Shown here: piece by piece, positions 10,373-17,728 of the stretch | Position numbering within the stretch: the first letter of the stretch is position 1 | How the letters are laid out: each line of letters starts with the position of its first letter | Origin: Pedobacter sp. BS3 | Lineage (GTDB): Bacteria > Bacteroidota > Bacteroidia > Sphingobacteriales > Sphingobacteriaceae | Assembly (NCBI RefSeq): GCF_008274585.1 | Contig: NZ_VTRT01000003.1 | Coordinates: forward strand, 310,001-374,000 | Reading direction: 5' to 3' | DNA length: 64,000 bases | Position numbers and translations under genes: made by a program | Notes under the pieces: generated by a model | Seen by the model: only the letters and a program-made list of their open reading frames with translations | Told to the model about the DNA's origin: nothing | Databases searched by the model: none

Positions 10373-11080
10373 ATGGATACCAGAAAGGCCATATACTACT
10401 TGGCAACTACACTCCTTTCCACTATCCCGTCTTTTGGTCAAACCAATAAAGAAGCGACAGGCGCAACTAATTTCCTGAGCCAGATCAACTATACGGGATT
10501 TAAAGCTAAGCCTGAACGTTCAAAACATATTGATTTTATGGCAGAGCCGGCTTCTCCACCTAACTTTGCTTTAGATTCACTTTATCAACCGGAGAAGAAC
10601 TACCAGTTTGAATTTAGATTGTATCAGGAAACAATGTATAACCAAGGGAATACGGTTTTTGTAATGACACTGGTACATAACCGGTGGACAGCCCGGTATT
10701 TTATATATGATACAAGCACTAAACAGGAAGGTCGGTTAAAAGAAGTTAGCATAGATCAGCAATACCTGGATGAGCTTTGGAGTTTACTTGTAAGCCACGC
10801 GGTATTGGAACTTCCCGATCAAAAAGCCCTTCAGAGCCAGCTCATTCATTACTCAGCGGACACGTTAGATCTGCCATTTTCACCACAAAAAAGCATAATC
10901 ACCATAGATGGAACCATGTATCGATTCTCACTAAGCACTCCTCAAAAACAACGAACGTACACTTATGCCAATCCTAAAGGTCAACTGGCAATGAGTTCTA
11001 ATATTAAAGAATTATACGATGCTTTTGCGATCATTGCGCTGATTAAAAAGTTTCTGAATATTCCATGTGAAGTTGGTTGA
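10373..11080 (+). CDS. Hypothetical exported protein
   Basis: About 235 residues from the ATG at 10373; an upstream ATG at 10334 lies in the AT-rich spacer and would place 13 residues before the signal peptide. The N-terminus has a hydrophobic core ending in IPSFGQ, so export is likely. The mature protein has no motif I recognise. It contains a segment of alternating polar and hydrophobic residues (YQFEFRLYQETMYNQGNTVFVMTL) compatible with beta structure. It stands alone between an AT-rich region and the pheA leader. Codon use is ordinary for the window, so it is probably a real gene. Confidence 0.65.
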   Translation: MDTRKAIYYLATTLLSTIPSFGQTNKEATGATNFLSQINYTGFKAKPERSKHIDFMAEPASPPNFALDSLYQPEKNYQFEFRLYQETMYNQGNTVFVMTLVHNRWTARYFIYDTSTKQEGRLKEVSIDQQYLDELWSLLVSHAVLELPDQKALQSQLIHYSADTLDLPFSPQKSIITIDGTMYRFSLSTPQKQRTYTYANPKGQLAMSSNIKELYDAFAIIALIKKFLNIPCEVG

Positions 11081-11125
11081 ACGTGAGTAATATTTTACCA
11101 CGAAGGCAAAAAAATTAATTTAAAA

Positions 11126-11251
11126 TTTGTGCCTTCAGGATTTTGTGGCACCCTTAAATTTGTGGACTATCTCCCATGTACCAGCTCATGAAGACTATAA
11201 GGTATAAAAAAACCAGCCCATAACTTTGTGCCTCGGTGACTTCGTGGCACA
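11126..11251. repeat. Two diverged direct copies of a GTGCCTTCGTGGCAC-type repeat
   Basis: Positions 11126-11152 and 11225-11251 each read TTTGTGCC, about 10 variable bases, then TTTGTGGCAC or TTCGTGGCAC. The first also has an upstream inverted partner (CCACGAAGGCA at 11100-11110). They resemble dispersed palindromic repeats common between Sphingobacteriaceae genes. They lie before the pheA promoter and are probably unrelated to its control. Confidence 0.5.
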
Positions 11252-11298
11252 CCCTATTTTACAGCACATCTCAACCTGAAAAAAAATTATCTTTTTTC

Positions 11299-11328
11299 TT
11301 GATAAAAAAAAATTAGTCCGTACATTTG
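11299..11328 (+). promoter_or_regulatory. Promoter of the aromatic amino acid operon leader
   Basis: A -33 TTG at 11299-11301 is followed after exactly 19 bases by TACATTTG at 11321-11328, matching the Bacteroidota promoter TTG-N19-TAnnTTTG. Transcription would start near 11335, about 14 bases before the leader peptide GTG. Confidence 0.7.
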
Positions 11329-11348
11329 GCGCAGCAAATAACAAAACA

Positions 11349-11417
11349 GTGAATTTTACCTACGCATATTTTTACGGATACTTTTACAACAGTAAGAGCC
11401 GGGACAATATTGCGTAG
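11349..11417 (+). CDS. Phe/Tyr-rich leader peptide of the pheA operon
   Basis: A 22-codon ORF with a GTG start and a TAG stop. Residues 3-13 contain three Phe and five Tyr (order F, Y, Y, F, Y, Y, F, Y). It sits between a good promoter and an intrinsic terminator and ahead of pheA, as expected for ribosome-mediated attenuation. Codons 17-19 (AGC CGG GAC) hold the bases GCCGGGAC at 11398-11405, which are identical to the 3' arm of the terminator hairpin and can pair with its 5' arm. A ribosome stalled on the aromatic codons (11355-11387) leaves this segment free to form the antiterminator; a ribosome that reaches the stop covers it. There is no ATG alternative in frame. Confidence 0.75.
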   Translation: MNFTYAYFYGYFYNSKSRDNIA

Positions 11418-11437
11418 ACAAAAAAATATAAGCGTAG

Positions 11438-11469
11438 AGTCCCGGCCGAAAAGCCGGGACTTTTTTTTT
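11438..11469 (+). terminator. Attenuator terminator upstream of pheA
   Basis: An 8-bp GC-rich stem, GTCCCGGC (11439-11446) with GCCGGGAC (11453-11460), loop CGAAAA, followed by nine T (11461-11469). The flanking A-T pair extends it to 9 bp. The pheA ATG follows after 8 bases. The 5' arm has a competing partner at 11398-11405 inside the leader ORF, so terminator and antiterminator are mutually exclusive. Confidence 0.85.
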
Positions 11470-11477
11470 AAATTTTT

Positions 11478-12305
11478 ATGCAGAAAAGAATAGCAATACA
11501 GGGTATTAAGGCATCATTCCACGAAGAAGCCGCGTTCAAGTTTTTTGGCGAGGACATCAAAACCATTGAATGCGATTCGTTCCGTGCAACCTGCGAGGCC
11601 TTAAAAAACAAACAAGCCGATTTTGTGGTAATGGCCATTGAAAATTCCATTGCCGGTAGTATTTTACCCAACTATTCACTTTTGCGTGATTACCATTTTA
11701 CCATTGTTGGCGAGGTTTATCTGCCGATACAATTACACCTGATGGCATTACCAGGCGTAAAATTCGAACAGATAAAATACGTGGAATCGCATCCAATCGC
11801 TATCCGGCAATGTATTGATTTCTTTTACGAATATCCTCACATCAAGGTAGTAGAAAGCACCGATACGGCCGCCTGTGCAAAAAAAATACGCGATAACAAG
11901 CTGACAGACACGGTAGCCATTGCCAACCAGCTGGCAGCAAAAACTTATGGTCTTGAAATACTGGAACGTCGCATTGAATCTAACAAGAAAAATTTTACCC
12001 GTTTCCTCATTCTTTCAGATAACGGCTCCGCGACCATCGAAAAACCGGATAAGGCCTCGTTAAGTTTCCAGGTGGGTAATGAAGTAGGTTCATTGGCAAA
12101 AATCCTGAATATCTTCGCCGAAAGGCAGATAAACCTCAGCAAAATCCAGTCGATGCCGGTGCTGGGAAAACGGAATGAATATAATTTTTACGTAGACATT
12201 GAATGGAAAAATCAGGCTGATTACGATTATGCCATCCGCAATGTTTTGCGATACGCCATTAACTTTACTATTATGGGAGAATATAAAAAGAACGAAAAAG
12301 CATAG
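11478..12305 (+). CDS. pheA: Prephenate dehydratase with C-terminal ACT domain
   Basis: A 275-residue stand-alone prephenate dehydratase. It starts IAIQGIKASFHEEAA and contains the catalytic NFTRFLIL (Thr-Arg-Phe) and the ESHPIAIRQC motif. Residues about 195-270 form an ACT domain (GSLAKILNIFAERQINLSKIQSMP) that normally binds phenylalanine for feedback inhibition. It converts prephenate to phenylpyruvate in the cytoplasm. It is the first gene after the attenuator, so Phe/Tyr supply should control it at transcription as well as by feedback. The chorismate mutase activity is supplied by the next gene rather than by fusion to PheA. Confidence 0.95.
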   Translation: MQKRIAIQGIKASFHEEAAFKFFGEDIKTIECDSFRATCEALKNKQADFVVMAIENSIAGSILPNYSLLRDYHFTIVGEVYLPIQLHLMALPGVKFEQIKYVESHPIAIRQCIDFFYEYPHIKVVESTDTAACAKKIRDNKLTDTVAIANQLAAKTYGLEILERRIESNKKNFTRFLILSDNGSATIEKPDKASLSFQVGNEVGSLAKILNIFAERQINLSKIQSMPVLGKRNEYNFYVDIEWKNQADYDYAIRNVLRYAINFTIMGEYKKNEKA

Positions 12306-12475
12306 ACCTTAAAAAATCAAAAGAATGAAATTCTGAGCATTCAGGATTTAAAATTCAAAAAGCGAAGAAGTAAACAATAATATAAACAAATAACAAACAA
12401 ATGTATAGCCCCCAAGCTCCCCTCTCCCTCGGAGAGGGGCCGGGGGTGAGGCCGAGTAACGAAATAAAAAACACT
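12306..12475 (+). repeat. Intra-operon spacer with a dispersed CTCTCC hairpin repeat
   Basis: The 170-base spacer carries CCCCTCTCC, a 3-base loop, and GGAGAGGGG at 12419-12439, followed by GCCGGGGGTGAGG. This GC-rich hairpin with its tail looks like a dispersed repeat of Sphingobacteriaceae; a weak relative (GGGAGGGCCGGGGTGGG) occurs near 27331. There is no T-tract, so it need not terminate transcription but could affect mRNA stability inside the operon. Confidence 0.55.
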
Positions 12476-13582
12476 ATGAAACTGAATTTAAATGTACAAC
12501 CGCTGTCTACCTGGTTAAAGCCAGTAAATGAGAATACGCCCCTGGTAATTGCAGGGCCATGCAGCGCCGAAACCGAAGATCAATTACTGGCAACAGCACA
12601 TTTGCTGGCCAAAACCGGTAAGGTTGCCGCCTTACGTGCCGGTATCTGGAAGCCCCGCACCCGCCCCGGCGAATTTGAAGGTATTGGAAGCATTGGCCTG
12701 GAATGGTTAAAACGGGCAAAAGCCGAAACCGGCTTACCGGTTGCCACCGAAGTAGCTACCGCTAAGCACGTTGAAGAAGCGCTGGCCGCCGGCGTAGATG
12801 TATTATGGGTTGGTGCACGCTCTACCGCGAATCCGTTTACCGTACAGGAAATTGCCGATGCCGTTCGCGGTGTCGACATCCCGGTTATTGTAAAAAACCC
12901 GGTTAATCCCGACCTTTCATTATGGATTGGCGCTTTGGAGCGTATCAACAATGCCGGCATTACCAAGCTTGCCGCCATTCACCGTGGATTCAGCTCGCAC
13001 GAAAAAACAGCATTCCGCAATCAACCGATGTGGGAACTGGCCATCCAGCTAAAAACACTATGCCCGGAATTACCCATCATCAACGACCCAAGCCACATTT
13101 GCGGAAACCGGGAGATCATTCCGTACATCAGTCAGAAAGCCTTAGACCTGGATATGCAGGGACTGATCATCGAATCGCATATTGATCCGTCTATTGCCTG
13201 GACCGATGCCAAGCAACAGGTTACCCCTTCTGCCCTGGCGGATATTATCGATCACTTAACATTGCGCCACAGCGAAGCTCAGAATGCCGAATTTTCTGAT
13301 AAGCTGGCTGAGCTCCGTAAAGAGATCGATCGTTTAGACGACCAGATCATCCAGAAAATTGCCGAGCGCATGAATGTGGCTGAGAAAATCGGTGAGTACA
13401 AACGCGATAACGATGTAACTGTTCTTCAGGTTAACCGCTGGGATGAGATCCTGCAAAAGCGTATTACGTTCGGAAAAGCGCTTAAACTGGATGAAGATTT
13501 CACAGCCAAGCTGCTGGAGCTTCTCCATAACGAATCTATTCGTAAGCAAACCGAAATTATGAACGCTAAACCCGTTGCTTAA
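12476..13582 (+). CDS. aroF: Bifunctional 3-deoxy-7-phosphoheptulonate synthase / chorismate mutase (type II)
   Basis: About 368 residues from the ATG at 12476; a longer in-frame start at 12401 lies in the hairpin repeat and is not credible. Residues 1-265 are a KDO8P/DAHP synthase-type barrel (VIAGPCSAETEDQL, RAGIWKPRTRPG, PVIVKNPVNPDLSLW). Residues about 275-360 are an AroQ-type chorismate mutase (LAELRKEIDRLDDQIIQKIAERM). It catalyses the first shikimate step and also converts chorismate to prephenate, feeding PheA encoded just upstream. The mutase domain may also serve as the allosteric sensor, as known for other fusions. Part of the pheA operon. Confidence 0.93.
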   Translation: MKLNLNVQPLSTWLKPVNENTPLVIAGPCSAETEDQLLATAHLLAKTGKVAALRAGIWKPRTRPGEFEGIGSIGLEWLKRAKAETGLPVATEVATAKHVEEALAAGVDVLWVGARSTANPFTVQEIADAVRGVDIPVIVKNPVNPDLSLWIGALERINNAGITKLAAIHRGFSSHEKTAFRNQPMWELAIQLKTLCPELPIINDPSHICGNREIIPYISQKALDLDMQGLIIESHIDPSIAWTDAKQQVTPSALADIIDHLTLRHSEAQNAEFSDKLAELRKEIDRLDDQIIQKIAERMNVAEKIGEYKRDNDVTVLQVNRWDEILQKRITFGKALKLDEDFTAKLLELLHNESIRKQTEIMNAKPVA

Positions 13583-13588
13583 TAAGAA

Positions 13589-14854
13589 ATGAGTTCCGAA
13601 AACGTCATCGTTTCTAACAGCAAACGCAGCTTTAACGGTATTATACAGCTTACCGGCTCTAAAAGCGAGAGCAACCGTGCCCTGATATTGCAGGCGCTCA
13701 GCAACGGGAATATCCGTATTGAAAACCTGTCGTCGGCTGCCGATACCGTTACACTGCATCGTATTCTGCAATCGGAAATTCATAATCCCGGTGCAACGGT
13801 AGATATCGGTCCGGCCGGTACGGCCATGCGTTTTCTTACCGCCTACAGCGCTGTGAAAGGCCTGGATGTTACGCTCACCGGAACAGCACGTATGAAGCAA
13901 CGGCCTATCGGCATGTTGGTTGACGCGTTAAGGGTATTAGGAGCCGATATTTCCTATACAGAAAACGAAGGCTTCCCCCCTATTAAAACAGGGAGCAATT
14001 TTGTCCAGAAAGCCAATCGCGTAAGCATTAAAGGCAATGTCAGCTCGCAATACATTACAGCATTACTGTTAGTTGCGCCTACCCTGCCGCAAGGCCTCGA
14101 TATATATATCGAAGGAGAGCTCACCTCGAAACCCTATGTGGAGATGACACTGACCATGCTCGAACAAAGCGGCATTGCGCATACCTGGACAGGCAATACC
14201 ATTCATATTGACCCGCAGGCGTTCAAACCGGTTACACTGACTGTAGAGCCCGATTGGAGCGCAGCGTCTTACTGGTATTCCATCGCGGCACTTTCTCAGG
14301 AAGCTGTCATCGAACTTCCTTACCTGAAAGCCGATAGTTTGCAGGGCGATAGCCGCATTGCTGATATTATGGCGCATTTTGGGATTGTATCCACGTTCAC
14401 CGGCAAAGGCCTTACCATCCGTAAAACGGATAAAGAGCTTACCCAGCGTGAGTTTGATTTTAAGGAATGCCCCGATTTGGCACAAACCGTTGTGGTTTGC
14501 TGCGCCGCATTGGGGCACAATGCTACCTTTACAGGATTAGAAACGCTTAAGATCAAAGAAACAGACCGGGTAAAAGCGTTACAAAACGAGCTGGCTAAGA
14601 TCGGTGTAACCCTGACCGAGGATAACGAAACGTATTACCTGGATTGCTCGCAAAAGCATATCCCTGAAAAAGTAAGTATTCATACCTACGATGATCATCG
14701 CATGGCCATGGCCTTTGCCCCGCTTGCGCTGGTTATTGATGAGGTTGAAATTGAAGATCACCAGGTAGTAGAAAAATCGTATCCCCATTACTGGGATGAT
14801 TTGAAAAAAGCAGGATTTAATGTACAAGTACAGACATCAGATGTGAGATGTTAG
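13589..14854 (+). CDS. aroA: 3-phosphoshikimate 1-carboxyvinyltransferase (EPSP synthase)
   Basis: A 421-residue EPSP synthase starting 6 bases after the previous stop. Visible motifs are GSKSESNRAL near the N-terminus (PEP/shikimate-phosphate Lys and Ser), GPAGTAMRFLTA, and KIKETDRVKAL. It joins shikimate-3-phosphate and PEP in the sixth shikimate step. The last residues (SDVRC) and the stop codon lie inside a 7-nt-phased repeat (14841-14861), so the true C-terminus appears to have been replaced or extended by repeat DNA. The catalytic domains end well before this. Confidence 0.95.
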   Translation: MSSENVIVSNSKRSFNGIIQLTGSKSESNRALILQALSNGNIRIENLSSAADTVTLHRILQSEIHNPGATVDIGPAGTAMRFLTAYSAVKGLDVTLTGTARMKQRPIGMLVDALRVLGADISYTENEGFPPIKTGSNFVQKANRVSIKGNVSSQYITALLLVAPTLPQGLDIYIEGELTSKPYVEMTLTMLEQSGIAHTWTGNTIHIDPQAFKPVTLTVEPDWSAASYWYSIAALSQEAVIELPYLKADSLQGDSRIADIMAHFGIVSTFTGKGLTIRKTDKELTQREFDFKECPDLAQTVVVCCAALGHNATFTGLETLKIKETDRVKALQNELAKIGVTLTEDNETYYLDCSQKHIPEKVSIHTYDDHRMAMAFAPLALVIDEVEIEDHQVVEKSYPHYWDDLKKAGFNVQVQTSDVRC

Positions 14855-14908
14855 ACGTGAGACCGAATTGGAAATCTCACATCTAAAATCGTATATCTAA
14901 AATCTAAA
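14841..14908. repeat. Heptamer-phased array across the aroA stop codon
   Basis: Three heptads (ATGTGAG ATGTTAG ACGTGAG, 14841-14861) run over the aroA 3' end. After a 12-base break come five more (ATCTCAC ATCTAAA ATCGTAT ATCTAAA ATCTAAA, 14874-14908). The two halves are partly inverted (AGATGTGAGAT against ATCTCACATCT), so the transcript can fold. The array ends 5 bases before the aroC ATG at 14914. Confidence 0.75.
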
Positions 14909-14913
14909 ATAAC

Positions 14914-16011
14914 ATGGCAGGCAATTCATTCGGACAGTTGTTTCGTATCACTACCTTCGGCGAGTCGCATGGGGCGGCTATTGGAGTGGTAATAGACGGC
15001 TGTCCGCCCAATGTTGATATTGACGAGAATTTCATACAATCGGAGCTGGACAAGCGTAAACCCGGCCAGTCCAGGATAACCACCCAACGTCGCGAAAGCG
15101 ATGAGTTCCAAATCCTTAGCGGAATATTTGAAGGAAAAAGTACCGGAACGCCTTTAACCCTGGTTATTCCTAATGCCGACCAACGCTCTAAAGACTACGA
15201 CCATAACAAAGATATTTTCCGTCCCTCGCATGCTGATTATGTGTACCAGGAAAAATACGGCATCCGCGATCATCGCGGTGGTGGCCGTTCATCGGCACGG
15301 GAAACCGCGGCCCGCGTTGCTGCCGGAGCTGTGGCAAAACTGTTCCTGAAAAAACACGGTATCGAATTTTTTGCCCACGTAACCGGTGTGGGTCAGCTTG
15401 AAGCCCCCGAAATTACAATTACCGACATTCCTGCACTCACAGAGATCAGGGAAAGTAACCTGGTGCGTTGTGCCGATGCCCACTTTGCCGAAACCATGAC
15501 CAACTATATTGACGAAGTACGAAAGGCAGGCGATACCGTTGGCGGACGTATTTCCTGTGTTATCCGTAACGTACCGGTTGGCCTGGGCGAGCCTGTTTTT
15601 GATAAGCTGCATGCCGACTTAGGCAAGGCCATGCTAAGTATTAACGCCGTACACGGTTTTGAATATGGCTCCGGCTTTGAGGGTTCTGAAATGAGGGGTT
15701 CCGAACATAACGACATTCCTGCACCATCGCAGGAAGGAACCGGCATTAAAACACTGACTAACTTTTCCGGTGGCATACAGGGCGGCATTTCCAACGGGAT
15801 GGATATTACCTTTAAAGTAGCATTTAAGCCAGTAGCCACCATTATGCATAATCAGCCAACGGTTGATAAATATGGCCACGCTGCCGAAATTAAAGGCAAG
15901 GGCCGCCACGATCCTTGTGTAGTGCCGCGTGCCGTCGCTATTGTTGAGGCCATGGCAGCGCTGGTTATCGCCGATCATTTTTTACGGGATAAAATTTATA
16001 ATAGGGAGTAA
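14914..16011 (+). CDS. aroC: Chorismate synthase
   Basis: A 365-residue full-length enzyme. It begins [19 protein letters not shown], contains [21 protein letters not shown]-type flavin/EPSP-binding sequence around residue 125 and ends with the family signature [20 protein letters not shown] (residues about 330-349). It converts EPSP to chorismate using reduced FMN. It is the last gene of the pheA operon, so the operon supplies the first and last shikimate steps plus chorismate-to-phenylpyruvate, while the middle shikimate genes, tyrA and an aminotransferase are elsewhere. Confidence 0.95.
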
Positions 16012-16014
16012 CTC

Positions 16015-16047
16015 TTCCCAGGTCTGTCGGGGGGACAGACCTGGGAA
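16015..16047 (+). terminator. Strong stem-loop after aroC
   Basis: A perfect 14-bp stem, TTCCCAGGTCTGTC with GACAGACCTGGGAA, and a five-G loop, starting 3 bases after the aroC stop. There is no T-tract after it, so it may stabilise the 3' end or be a dispersed palindrome rather than a classic intrinsic terminator. Confidence 0.6.
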
Positions 16048-16369
16048 CGGAAACGTTAATTGTGATCTCTGATCATAAGACCGCTTTTTCAGCCAACCGG
16101 CAAATTGCAATAACGAGAAAACCAGATCGTTTGCCCCGGCATGAAGTCCCGGGTTTACCCACATCTTTAACTTAACCTTTACAGCCCTTATCTGCACTAT
16201 ACGCTGTTCTCCTTACTTCCTTCGTTAATCGCTGTCCTCTGCCAGCTGGCGGGTGTTAGCAGCAAGGGCATCGAATGGTATTTATCCTGAGCACTTAAAA
16301 CGCTCCTTGTAAAAAGGCTTAGTATAACAGAGAATACCCCTATATTTACATCATAAAAAACTCACGGTC
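16048..16369. other. Intergenic region before the acyl-CoA dehydrogenase gene
   Basis: About 320 bases with no ORF, repeat or RNA gene that I recognise. Near its end CTATATTTAC (about 16340-16349) resembles a -7 box, TAnnTTTG with the last base changed, and lies about 20 bases before the ATG at 16370. Confidence 0.4.
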
Positions 16370-17728
16370 ATGTCCGGAACATTTTCAAAGATCAAACAGG
16401 CTTATAAGCTCTTAACAACTATCGATTTTGCCCAGCTCAGCAAGTTATCAGAGAAAGTTGACCTGGCAAAGGTAATGGATAATGTGTCCCGTTTGGATGA
16501 TAACCAGTTGAATGGCTTATTGAAAATGTTATCCTCGGGTGGCAAAAAAAAGGAATTGCCTCCGCTTAACGCGGATTTTTATGAGCTGGATCTTCGTTTG
16601 AGTGATGAAGACCGGGCTTTACAGCTGAAAGTCCGTGAGTTTATGGAAAAAGAGATCAAGCCCATTGTGAACAATTATTGGCTGCACGATGAATTTCCGT
16701 TTGATATTATCCCCAAATTTGCTGCCCTGAACATTTGCGGTGTTACTTACCAGGGTTATGGCTGTCCGGGCAGATCCTCGCTGATGGAAGGCATTATCGC
16801 TATGGAGATGGCCCGTGTAGACGCTTCCATAGCAACTTTTTTCGGTGTGCAAAGTGGTCTGGCGATGGGTTCGATATACCGGTGTGGTTCTGAAGAGCAA
16901 AAGCAGGAATGGCTGCCGGCCTTACAGCAGCTAAAGGTTATCGGTGCATTCGGTCTTACCGAGCCCGAAGTGGGTTCGGCGGTAGCGGGAGGACTGACCA
17001 CTACAGCTAAAAAGACCGGAGCGGGATGGGTGCTTAACGGTCAGAAAAAATGGATTGGTAATGCTCCTTTTGCTGATGTAACCATTATCTGGGCCCGCGA
17101 TGTGGACGACAACCAGGTAAAAGGTTTCCTGGTACGGAAAGGTACGTCCGGTTTTGCGGTTGAAAAAATCAAAGGTAAAATGGCTTTGCGCATTGTGCAG
17201 AATGGTTTAATTACGCTGACCGATTGTGTGGTTCCTGAAAGCGATCGTTTGCAGCAGGCCAATTCGTTTAAAGATACCGCCGAAATATTGCGCTTAACCC
17301 GTGCCGGTGTGGCCTGGATGGCCGTTGGCTGTGCCCGTGGCGCTTACGAGAGTGCGCTCAATTATACCCGTACCCGCAAGCAATTCGGAAAGCCCATCGC
17401 GGCGTTTCAGCTGGTGCAAAACCACCTGGTAGAAATGTTGTCGAATCTCACAGCCATGCAAACGCTGGTTTTCCGCTTATCAGAATTACAGGATGGCGGC
17501 CTGCTGAAAGATGAGCATGCTTCGCTGGCTAAGGTATTTTGTTCATTGCGTACCCGCGATATTGTAAGCAAGGCCCGTGAGGTAATGGGCGGAAATGGCA
17601 TCCTGCTGGATTATGATGTGGCCCGTTTTGTTGCCGATGCCGAAGCGATTTATTCGTACGAAGGCACCAAAGAGATCAATTCACTGATCGTGGGACGGGC
17701 GATCACGGGTTTTAGTGCGTTTGTATAA
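16370..17728 (+). CDS. Acyl-CoA dehydrogenase family protein, ACX4/glutaryl-CoA dehydrogenase-like
   Basis: A 452-residue flavoenzyme with an extra N-terminal stretch of about 65 helical residues. The core has GAFGLTEPEVGS, WVLNGQKKWIGN, TRTRKQFGKPIAAFQL and MGGNGIL, all FAD or acyl-CoA contact motifs. The catalytic Glu is Glu431 in YSYEGTKEINSL, as in glutaryl-CoA dehydrogenase. However, the Arg that grips the glutaryl carboxylate (YRSAMSVQ in the human enzyme) is replaced (IATFFGVQ), so glutarate is unlikely. Many stretches resemble plant ACX4 short-chain oxidase as I remember it (GQK+WIGN, MVQNG/IVQNG). Monocistronic; substrate unknown. Confidence 0.85.
   Translation: MSGTFSKIKQAYKLLTTIDFAQLSKLSEKVDLAKVMDNVSRLDDNQLNGLLKMLSSGGKKKELPPLNADFYELDLRLSDEDRALQLKVREFMEKEIKPIVNNYWLHDEFPFDIIPKFAALNICGVTYQGYGCPGRSSLMEGIIAMEMARVDASIATFFGVQSGLAMGSIYRCGSEEQKQEWLPALQQLKVIGAFGLTEPEVGSAVAGGLTTTAKKTGAGWVLNGQKKWIGNAPFADVTIIWARDVDDNQVKGFLVRKGTSGFAVEKIKGKMALRIVQNGLITLTDCVVPESDRLQQANSFKDTAEILRLTRAGVAWMAVGCARGAYESALNYTRTRKQFGKPIAAFQLVQNHLVEMLSNLTAMQTLVFRLSELQDGGLLKDEHASLAKVFCSLRTRDIVSKAREVMGGNGILLDYDVARFVADAEAIYSYEGTKEINSLIVGRAITGFSAFV

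Follow-up and report, generated by a model that had tools for sequence, protein, structure and literature searches.

The window, a 64,000-nucleotide stretch of the Pedobacter sp. BS3 genome, carries on its plus strand a promoter, a short reading frame rich in aromatic codons, an intrinsic terminator and the genes pheA, aroF/CM, aroA and aroC (Table 1). Profile matches gave the four genes the identities under which the original prediction had named the pheA-aroF-aroA-aroC operon, and this operon supplies both Phe and Tyr. The DAHP synthase/chorismate mutase gene, which follows next after pheA in 80/80 relatives (the best 80 of 201), probably starts at 12476, judging from the sequence, and not at the first ATG (12401). 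A separate tyrA-like gene is located on another contig of the same genome. An inverted repeat (CTCTCCCTCGGAGAGGGG and GGGGGTGAGG, 12422-12451) lies between pheA and the DAHP synthase gene; it reads in frame as SLGEGPGVR in a longer ORF, and its core has six copies genome-wide, this one included.

Table 1. Features of the pheA leader region and operon, in window coordinates
Feature	Position	Strand	Description	Basis
Promoter, Bacteroidota type	11299..11328	+	TTG 11299-11301, 19 nt, TACATTTG 11321-11328	sequence
Leader peptide ORF	11349..11417	+	GTG start, VNFTYAYFYGYFYNSKSRDNIA, TAG stop 11415-11417, 22 sense codons	sequence, relatives
Control codons 3-13	11355..11387	+	Phe 3, 8, 12; Tyr 5, 7, 9, 11, 13	sequence
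1:2 hairpin	11360..11417	+	outer stem 11360-11369/11407-11417, one bulge	fold
Segment 2, antiterminator 5' arm	11398..11405	+	GCCGGGAC, within leader codons 17-19	sequence, covariation with segment 3
Second GCGTAG copy	11432..11437	+	right before segment 3; CTACGC 11360-11365 may pair here instead	sequence
Intrinsic terminator	11436..11469	+	11-bp stem (11436-11463), 6-nt loop, T tract 11461-11469	fold
Segment 3	11439..11446	+	GTCCCGGC; partner of segment 2 (antiterminator) or 4 (terminator)	sequence, fold, covariation
Segment 4	11453..11460	+	GCCGGGAC, same as segment 2	sequence
pheA, prephenate dehydratase	11478..12305	+		NCBIfam PRK11898, E 3e-59, 200 bits, under cut-off 219
DAHP synthase with C-terminal chorismate mutase (aroF/CM)	12476..13582	+		PRK08673 and chorismate mutase models, below cut-off
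aroA, EPSP synthase	13589..14854	+		TIGR01356, above cut-off
aroC, chorismate synthase	14914..16011	+		TIGR00033, above cut-off

When the sequence was read again, every coordinate given in the original prediction was found to be right, from the promoter through the 22-codon GTG leader and segments 2-4 to the nine T (11461-11469) and, 8 nt further, the pheA ATG. The region between 11335 and 11469 had a predicted folding energy of -40.7 kcal/mol (z -6.4), and none of 200 shuffled sequences was as stable. Segments 2 and 4 are identical and both complementary to segment 3, as had been claimed. The 2:3 pairing is exact over 8 bp, and segment 3 is common to the antiterminator and the terminator, as expected of an attenuator. 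The stretch 11392-11450, from which segment 1 is absent, formed the 2:3 antiterminator (-19.5 kcal/mol, z -5.1), and the terminator itself, located between the leader ORF and the first gene of the operon with its 11-bp stem and T9, folded with -19.9 kcal/mol (z -4.8). A terminator consensus scan of 11000-16400 alone gave no excess, seven sites being found against 7.0 expected; among these seven terminator-like sites, the one before pheA had the most pairs.

The part upstream of segment 3 folded into the 1:2 hairpin with -20.8 kcal/mol (z -4.4). Its outer stem is the CTACGC:GCGTAG hairpin that had already been predicted; the inner and middle stems and the second GCGTAG copy were additional to that prediction; the second copy (11432-11437) may compete for CTACGC at 11360-11365. 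The middle stem pairs CGG (11375-11377) with CCG (11399-11401), and the inner stem pairs CTTTTAC (11381-11387), which lies within the Tyr-Phe-Tyr codons, with GTAAGAG (11392-11398). The 5' arms of the hairpin thus sit in the control codons; 16 of the 24 aromatic-codon bases were paired downstream of the block, and segment 2 was enclosed and partly paired, in keeping with a 1:2 alternative. Because the inner stem overlaps segment 2 only at G11398, and indeed coexists with 2:3 in one predicted fold, it is the middle and outer stems that exclude the 2:3 pairing.

The best 80 of 201 pheA relatives from named genomes, mostly Sphingobacteriaceae by title, gave 81 loci together with the window. A terminator-like hairpin was present upstream of pheA in all 81, and the combination of an aromatic short ORF and a terminator was detected in 79, the contigs of the other two (L034 and L041) starting inside the leader. 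Elsewhere in these sequences the detector gave a single match in 1,159,118 bases (both strands), which fell on the opposite strand of a pheA terminator already counted. Three of the 81 loci, L010, L008 and L014, are filed as Legionellaceae or Sphingobacterium thalpophilum MAGs, and their pheA and leaders resemble those of the Daejeonella loci; these contigs are possibly misbinned or misnamed.

These relatives also bear on what the hairpin does. Since its end lies about 14 nt from the pheA ATG, it could act chiefly on pheA translation or mRNA stability instead of on termination. We consider this very improbable, given that the stem continues into nine T and that the gap to pheA extends up to 108 and 235 nt in relatives, which is too long for the hairpin to cover the start codon. 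Termination before pheA is the reading that we follow below.

Alignment A1 comprised 76 sequences after removal of five identical ones. Alignment of the region upstream of pheA in relatives had been set beforehand as the check on the prediction, and it showed that the aromatic codons are largely kept and that segments 2, 3 and 4 change together. In the terminator (3:4), 97.2% of the cells were paired, and both partners had changed in five pairs and 17 cells, against 1.6 and 2.8 in shuffles. The 2:3 pairing was retained in 98.2% of the cells, with both partners changed in ten cells (1.2 in shuffles); only two pairs were affected, which was matched by 57/500 shuffles, and the pair-type count was not above that of the shuffles, 360/500 of which matched it. 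The clearest 2:3 change was at column 86:148, with C-G in 65 and G-U in 9. The inner 1:2 stem was retained in the aligned relatives. The outer 1:2 stem was not retained column by column in the register of the window, and 86.6% of the A1 cells were paired in the slightly shifted register of most relatives. Its covariation was weak, the score and cell count being reached by 18 to 22 of 500 shuffles and the pair number by 492, and one slid version of the stem scored above the relatives' register.

An RNA model of A1 matched 71 of 81 whole family genomes at E ≤ 0.01 (66 at E ≤ 1e-6 and five weakly). Many genomes contained a second match, mostly a weak one. Four second matches exceeded 45 bits, all in one genus, and proved to be Thr/Ile leaders (L191-L194) before a thrA-like ORF; the one weak second match that we inspected (L195) resembles a gene-end terminator.

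Pairing between the leader and the terminator was also assessed across families by comparing, in 42 loci outside the family (12 later class loci were excluded), the pairing of each leader with its own terminator arm and with those of the others. The mean for the leader and its own arm was -13.15 kcal/mol, against -8.62 (sd 0.36) for permuted combinations, and none of 10,000 permutations was as low, although some of the 42 loci are from related genera and are not independent. When tested individually against shuffled leaders, 37/42 loci had a significant pairing of their own (p < 0.05), and segment 2 was not significant alone in the remaining 5/42. In predicted folds, segment 2 was paired or enclosed in 86/86 family leaders and 53/54 others, counts that were made without a shuffle control. 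At least six aromatic-codon bases were paired downstream in 85/86 family leaders vs. 34/54 others, and the 1:2 region was unusually stable (z < -2) in 28/54 loci outside the family.

A wider set of 296 genomes of the phylum included 258 with a pheA match: the genome of the window itself, 7 others from its family, 61 from elsewhere in the class and 189 from elsewhere in the phylum. Of the 7 family genomes, two apparently also belong to the named set (L082 = L021, L083 = L023). Leader and terminator were found in 56/68 further family and class genomes (44/48 and 12/20); L107, L123, L125 and L129 were recognised by eye and, with wider G+C and loop limits, by the detector. The signature was absent in the other 12/68. 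Among these 12, pheA directly follows an aroA-like ORF in three and another ORF in one; six (f3) possess a distant pheA (31-33% identical), which in 4/6 lies at most 30 nt from another ORF; and in two (f10) an ORF runs into pheA, apparently as a chorismate mutase fusion. Outside the class, 32 of the 189 genomes were examined, 12 of which were chosen from better-scoring rows. The signature was present in 5/32 (L130, L131, L133, L134 and L135) and was not found in 27/32, including L132, which has a weak candidate. The five leader-bearing pheA proteins are 44-47% identical to that of the window. For four of them, the remaining listed members of the respective family have much lower scores, and pheA was therefore likely transferred together with its switch into these four lineages; in the family of the fifth (f47), the only other member is L132, with the same pheA type.

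The leader start has features that set the family apart from the other loci. GTG is used as the leader start codon in the window alone, ATG being assigned in 76/79 loci and TTG in 2/79 by a detector that favours ATG where it is present. TAnnTTTG is a promoter consensus given in the available text of PMC9723704, and 77/86 family loci had a TAnnTTT[GAC] box no more than 45 nt from the leader start, with a median spacing of 17 nt (IQR 16-18); outside the family, it was found in 26/54 loci and the spacing was not fixed. The 12 nt upstream of the leader start were 70% A in the family and 45% A outside it, and SD-like motifs preceded the start in 3/86 family loci and 0/54 others. Because the promoter box stands at a median of 17 nt, the leader mRNA of the family probably has only about 10-15 bases ahead of the start codon.

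The absence of aromatic codons from homologous leaders, which had been considered as a possible objection, was not encountered: both Phe and Tyr codons occurred in all 140 detected leaders (133 distinct), and Trp codons occurred too in 45. Relatives largely retained the aromatic codons, with swaps among Phe, Tyr and Trp at aligned leader positions. At one such position of the family, anchored on the last clustered aromatic codon, TTT was found in 37, TGG in 20 and TAT in 18 of 86 loci, and a non-aromatic codon in only 5/86. Conservation of the ORF might also be explained if it encoded a functional small protein with no control role, the terminator lying behind it by chance. We give this next to no credence, for Phe, Tyr and Trp are swapped, neither length nor frame is constant for the region past the aromatic block and for the stop, and segment 2 and the terminator co-vary.

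A more serious question is which amino acids a leader of this kind would sense. Codon totals were Tyr 370, Phe 259 and Trp 21 in 79 family loci. The excess of Tyr over Phe codons, together with the fact that the aromatic codons also form the 1:2 stems, would be consistent with a leader that senses one amino acid only (Phe, pheA being the first gene, or Tyr, which has more codons), the remaining codons being passive and shaped by pairing. This is unlikely in our view: both codon types are present in all the leaders, the ratio is inverted in 42 loci of other families (Phe 225, Tyr 162, Trp 18), and the three aromatic residues interchange at aligned positions in front of an operon that makes both amino acids. 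The proposal of joint Phe and Tyr sensing in the original prediction gains support from the same codon swaps and the dual product of the operon. We also considered a phenylalanine hydroxylase, which makes Tyr from Phe, as the reason for the Tyr codons; this candidate was rejected, as the genome had no PF00351 match and carries the separate tyrA-like gene.

The first base of the last clustered aromatic codon precedes the start of segment 2 by 13 nt in 45/79 loci including the window (range 9-17), and by 8-17 nt in 38/42 loci of other families. If a ribosome is assumed to cover 12 nt past the first base of its A-site codon, all eight bases of segment 2 in the window are free while it stands at codons 1-13, five at codon 14, two at codon 15 and none from codon 16. 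A ribosome has been reported to cover up to 12 nt beyond a stop codon, 2 nt more than our assumption (available text of PMC4833913); with this larger footprint, 6/8 bases are free at codon 13 and 8/8 at codon 12 and before. The spacing in the window is accordingly suited to attenuation, with the switch falling between codons 13 and 16, or 12 and 15 with the larger footprint. The start of segment 2 relative to the stop codon varies from -31 to +8 nt. The stop position is thus not fixed, and a ribosome waiting at the stop would therefore miss segment 2 in some relatives. Such a ribosome would cover segment 2 at least partly in the window and in most family members, and not in all other families, where the ribosome would have to pass while segment 3 is being transcribed, or to stand between segments 2 and 3, instead.

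Taken together, these features make it very probable that the element works as a ribosome-mediated transcription attenuator with joint sensing of charged tRNA-Phe and tRNA-Tyr. In the mechanism that we propose, a ribosome would load on the leader closely behind RNA polymerase. When Phe or Tyr is short, it would stall on codons 3-13 and break the outer 1:2 stem, leaving segment 2 free; 2:3 would then form and the operon would be transcribed. With both amino acids plentiful, the ribosome would pass over segment 2, 3:4 would form and transcription would end before pheA. If the leader were not translated, 1:2 would form, and the terminator too. Because the Phe and Tyr codons are interleaved, shortage of either amino acid should give read-through. 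As worked out from its sequence, the element is best seen as a classical leader-peptide attenuator, a known kind of mechanism with a member in Bacteroidota, and it represents a well-supported and widespread candidate for ribosome-dependent attenuation in this phylum. The pheA leader is, in addition, a candidate for a new family in RNA databases, and it provides leader genes as a set and a conserved switch in aromatic amino acid production.

The same genome contains other leaders upstream of amino acid biosynthesis genes. The leader MSTTIHTKSWWWQGNHTFAGQLYAY and a terminator lie upstream of trpE (L164, C1:604686 region, minus strand). This leader carries CGCCGGGC, which can pair with 7/8 bases of the terminator 5' arm, and it scored 24.7 bits (E 0.0074) with the pheA RNA model. 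Cut before the 3' terminator arm, its stretch was not unusually stable (z -0.43, 62/200 shuffles as stable), and its best fold contained 2:3. Judging from these pairings, it is probably a Trp attenuator built like that of pheA. Upstream of thrA (L168:1526-1660), the leader MFNTSIITITTTTTTGIFSEEGL is followed by segment 2 GGAGGAAGG and a terminator with CCTTCCTCC; its fold had a z of -4.7, and in codon content it resembles the E. coli thr leader. The His-rich short ORF MPVLFTHHVHFHHRPVGDR lies upstream of hisG (L170, minus strand, near position 2202 after reversal). No terminator was seen by eye in the stretch read there, and the control of hisG may differ from that of the other leaders. Likewise, no leader was seen in the upstream stretches of ilvD and ilvE that were examined. 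The trpE, thrA and hisG leader loci had no Rfam match at the gathering cut-offs.

On balance, we lean slightly towards regarding the pheA element as a multi-tRNA attenuator that is ancestral in the class and works as an OR gate for Phe and Tyr (with Trp in 45/140 leaders), being one of a set of Phe/Tyr, Trp, Thr/Ile and His leaders. If this is true, RNA polymerase and the ribosome must be closely coupled in bacteria that start their leaders without SD-like sites, and coupling in the family would be enabled by the A-rich start, the promoter box at a median of 17 nt and the spacing of about 13 nt to segment 2. Transcription-translation coupling is under debate (PMC7858274, available text). Because the switch would work only with a ribosome close behind RNA polymerase, the question of coupling in these bacteria is reduced to a simple reporter test.

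A search of the window against Rfam, at the gathering cut-offs and at E up to 10, gave nothing near a cut-off. Phe_leader (RF01859) scored 17.7 bits against a cut-off of 55, and 16.7 bits on the opposite strand; the best leader family was Thr_leader (RF00506), with 24.9 bits (E 0.0076), also below its cut-off of 55. Operons of the same kind are under T-box control in Firmicutes, and a tRNA-binding T-box, or another riboswitch that senses the amino acid directly, might be supposed here as well. This is exceedingly unlikely, as no Rfam family matched the window at the gathering thresholds and no T-box was present among the 37 weak matches. The ribosome-mediated attenuator remains our preferred reading, and its setting in the literature is as follows.

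The original prediction also held that a Bacteroidota version of this attenuator may be little described. This stands insofar as the element is absent from Rfam and our search, which was thin in subscription papers, found only brief hints of ribosome-dependent attenuation in Bacteroidota; we make no claim to a first description. A 2010 survey by Lopatovskaya and colleagues, which PMC4833913 cites, may include Bacteroidota. The claim needs to be qualified in that the available text of PMC9723704 reports a structured 5' element before pheA that is conserved across genera of Flavobacteriaceae and has no Rfam hit. The same text finds strong indications of attenuation by leader peptides upstream of amino acid operons in Flavobacterium psychrophilum, and short ORFs reminiscent of leader peptides are mentioned for Bacteroides in the available text of PMC7366714.

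Leader-peptide attenuators of amino acid operons are known in Proteobacteria, Actinobacteria and Firmicutes (PMC2965389, available text; PMC1262725 is listed on the same subject); they work by the mechanism proposed here, in other phyla, and the terms bacteroid, flavobacteri and pheA are absent from the main text of PMC2965389 as available. The enterobacterial pheL-pheA attenuator (RF01859) is among the nearest known systems. In that system, pheA is preceded by a leader with many codons for the regulated amino acid, by 1:2, 2:3 and 3:4 pairings and by a terminator, and the window is alike in all these respects. For E. coli, attenuation of pheA is mentioned in the available text of PMC1183508. 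Unlike pheL, the leader of the window has Tyr as well as Phe codons, has no match to the covariance model and precedes a pheA-aroF-aroA-aroC operon, and leaders of its type have SD-like sites in just 3/86 family loci. The Flavobacteriaceae element of PMC9723704 is alike in gene, phylum, conservation across genera and absence from Rfam. It is given without sequence or mechanism in the available text, whereas here the leader, the pairings, the spacing and the co-variation have been worked out and followed across the class.
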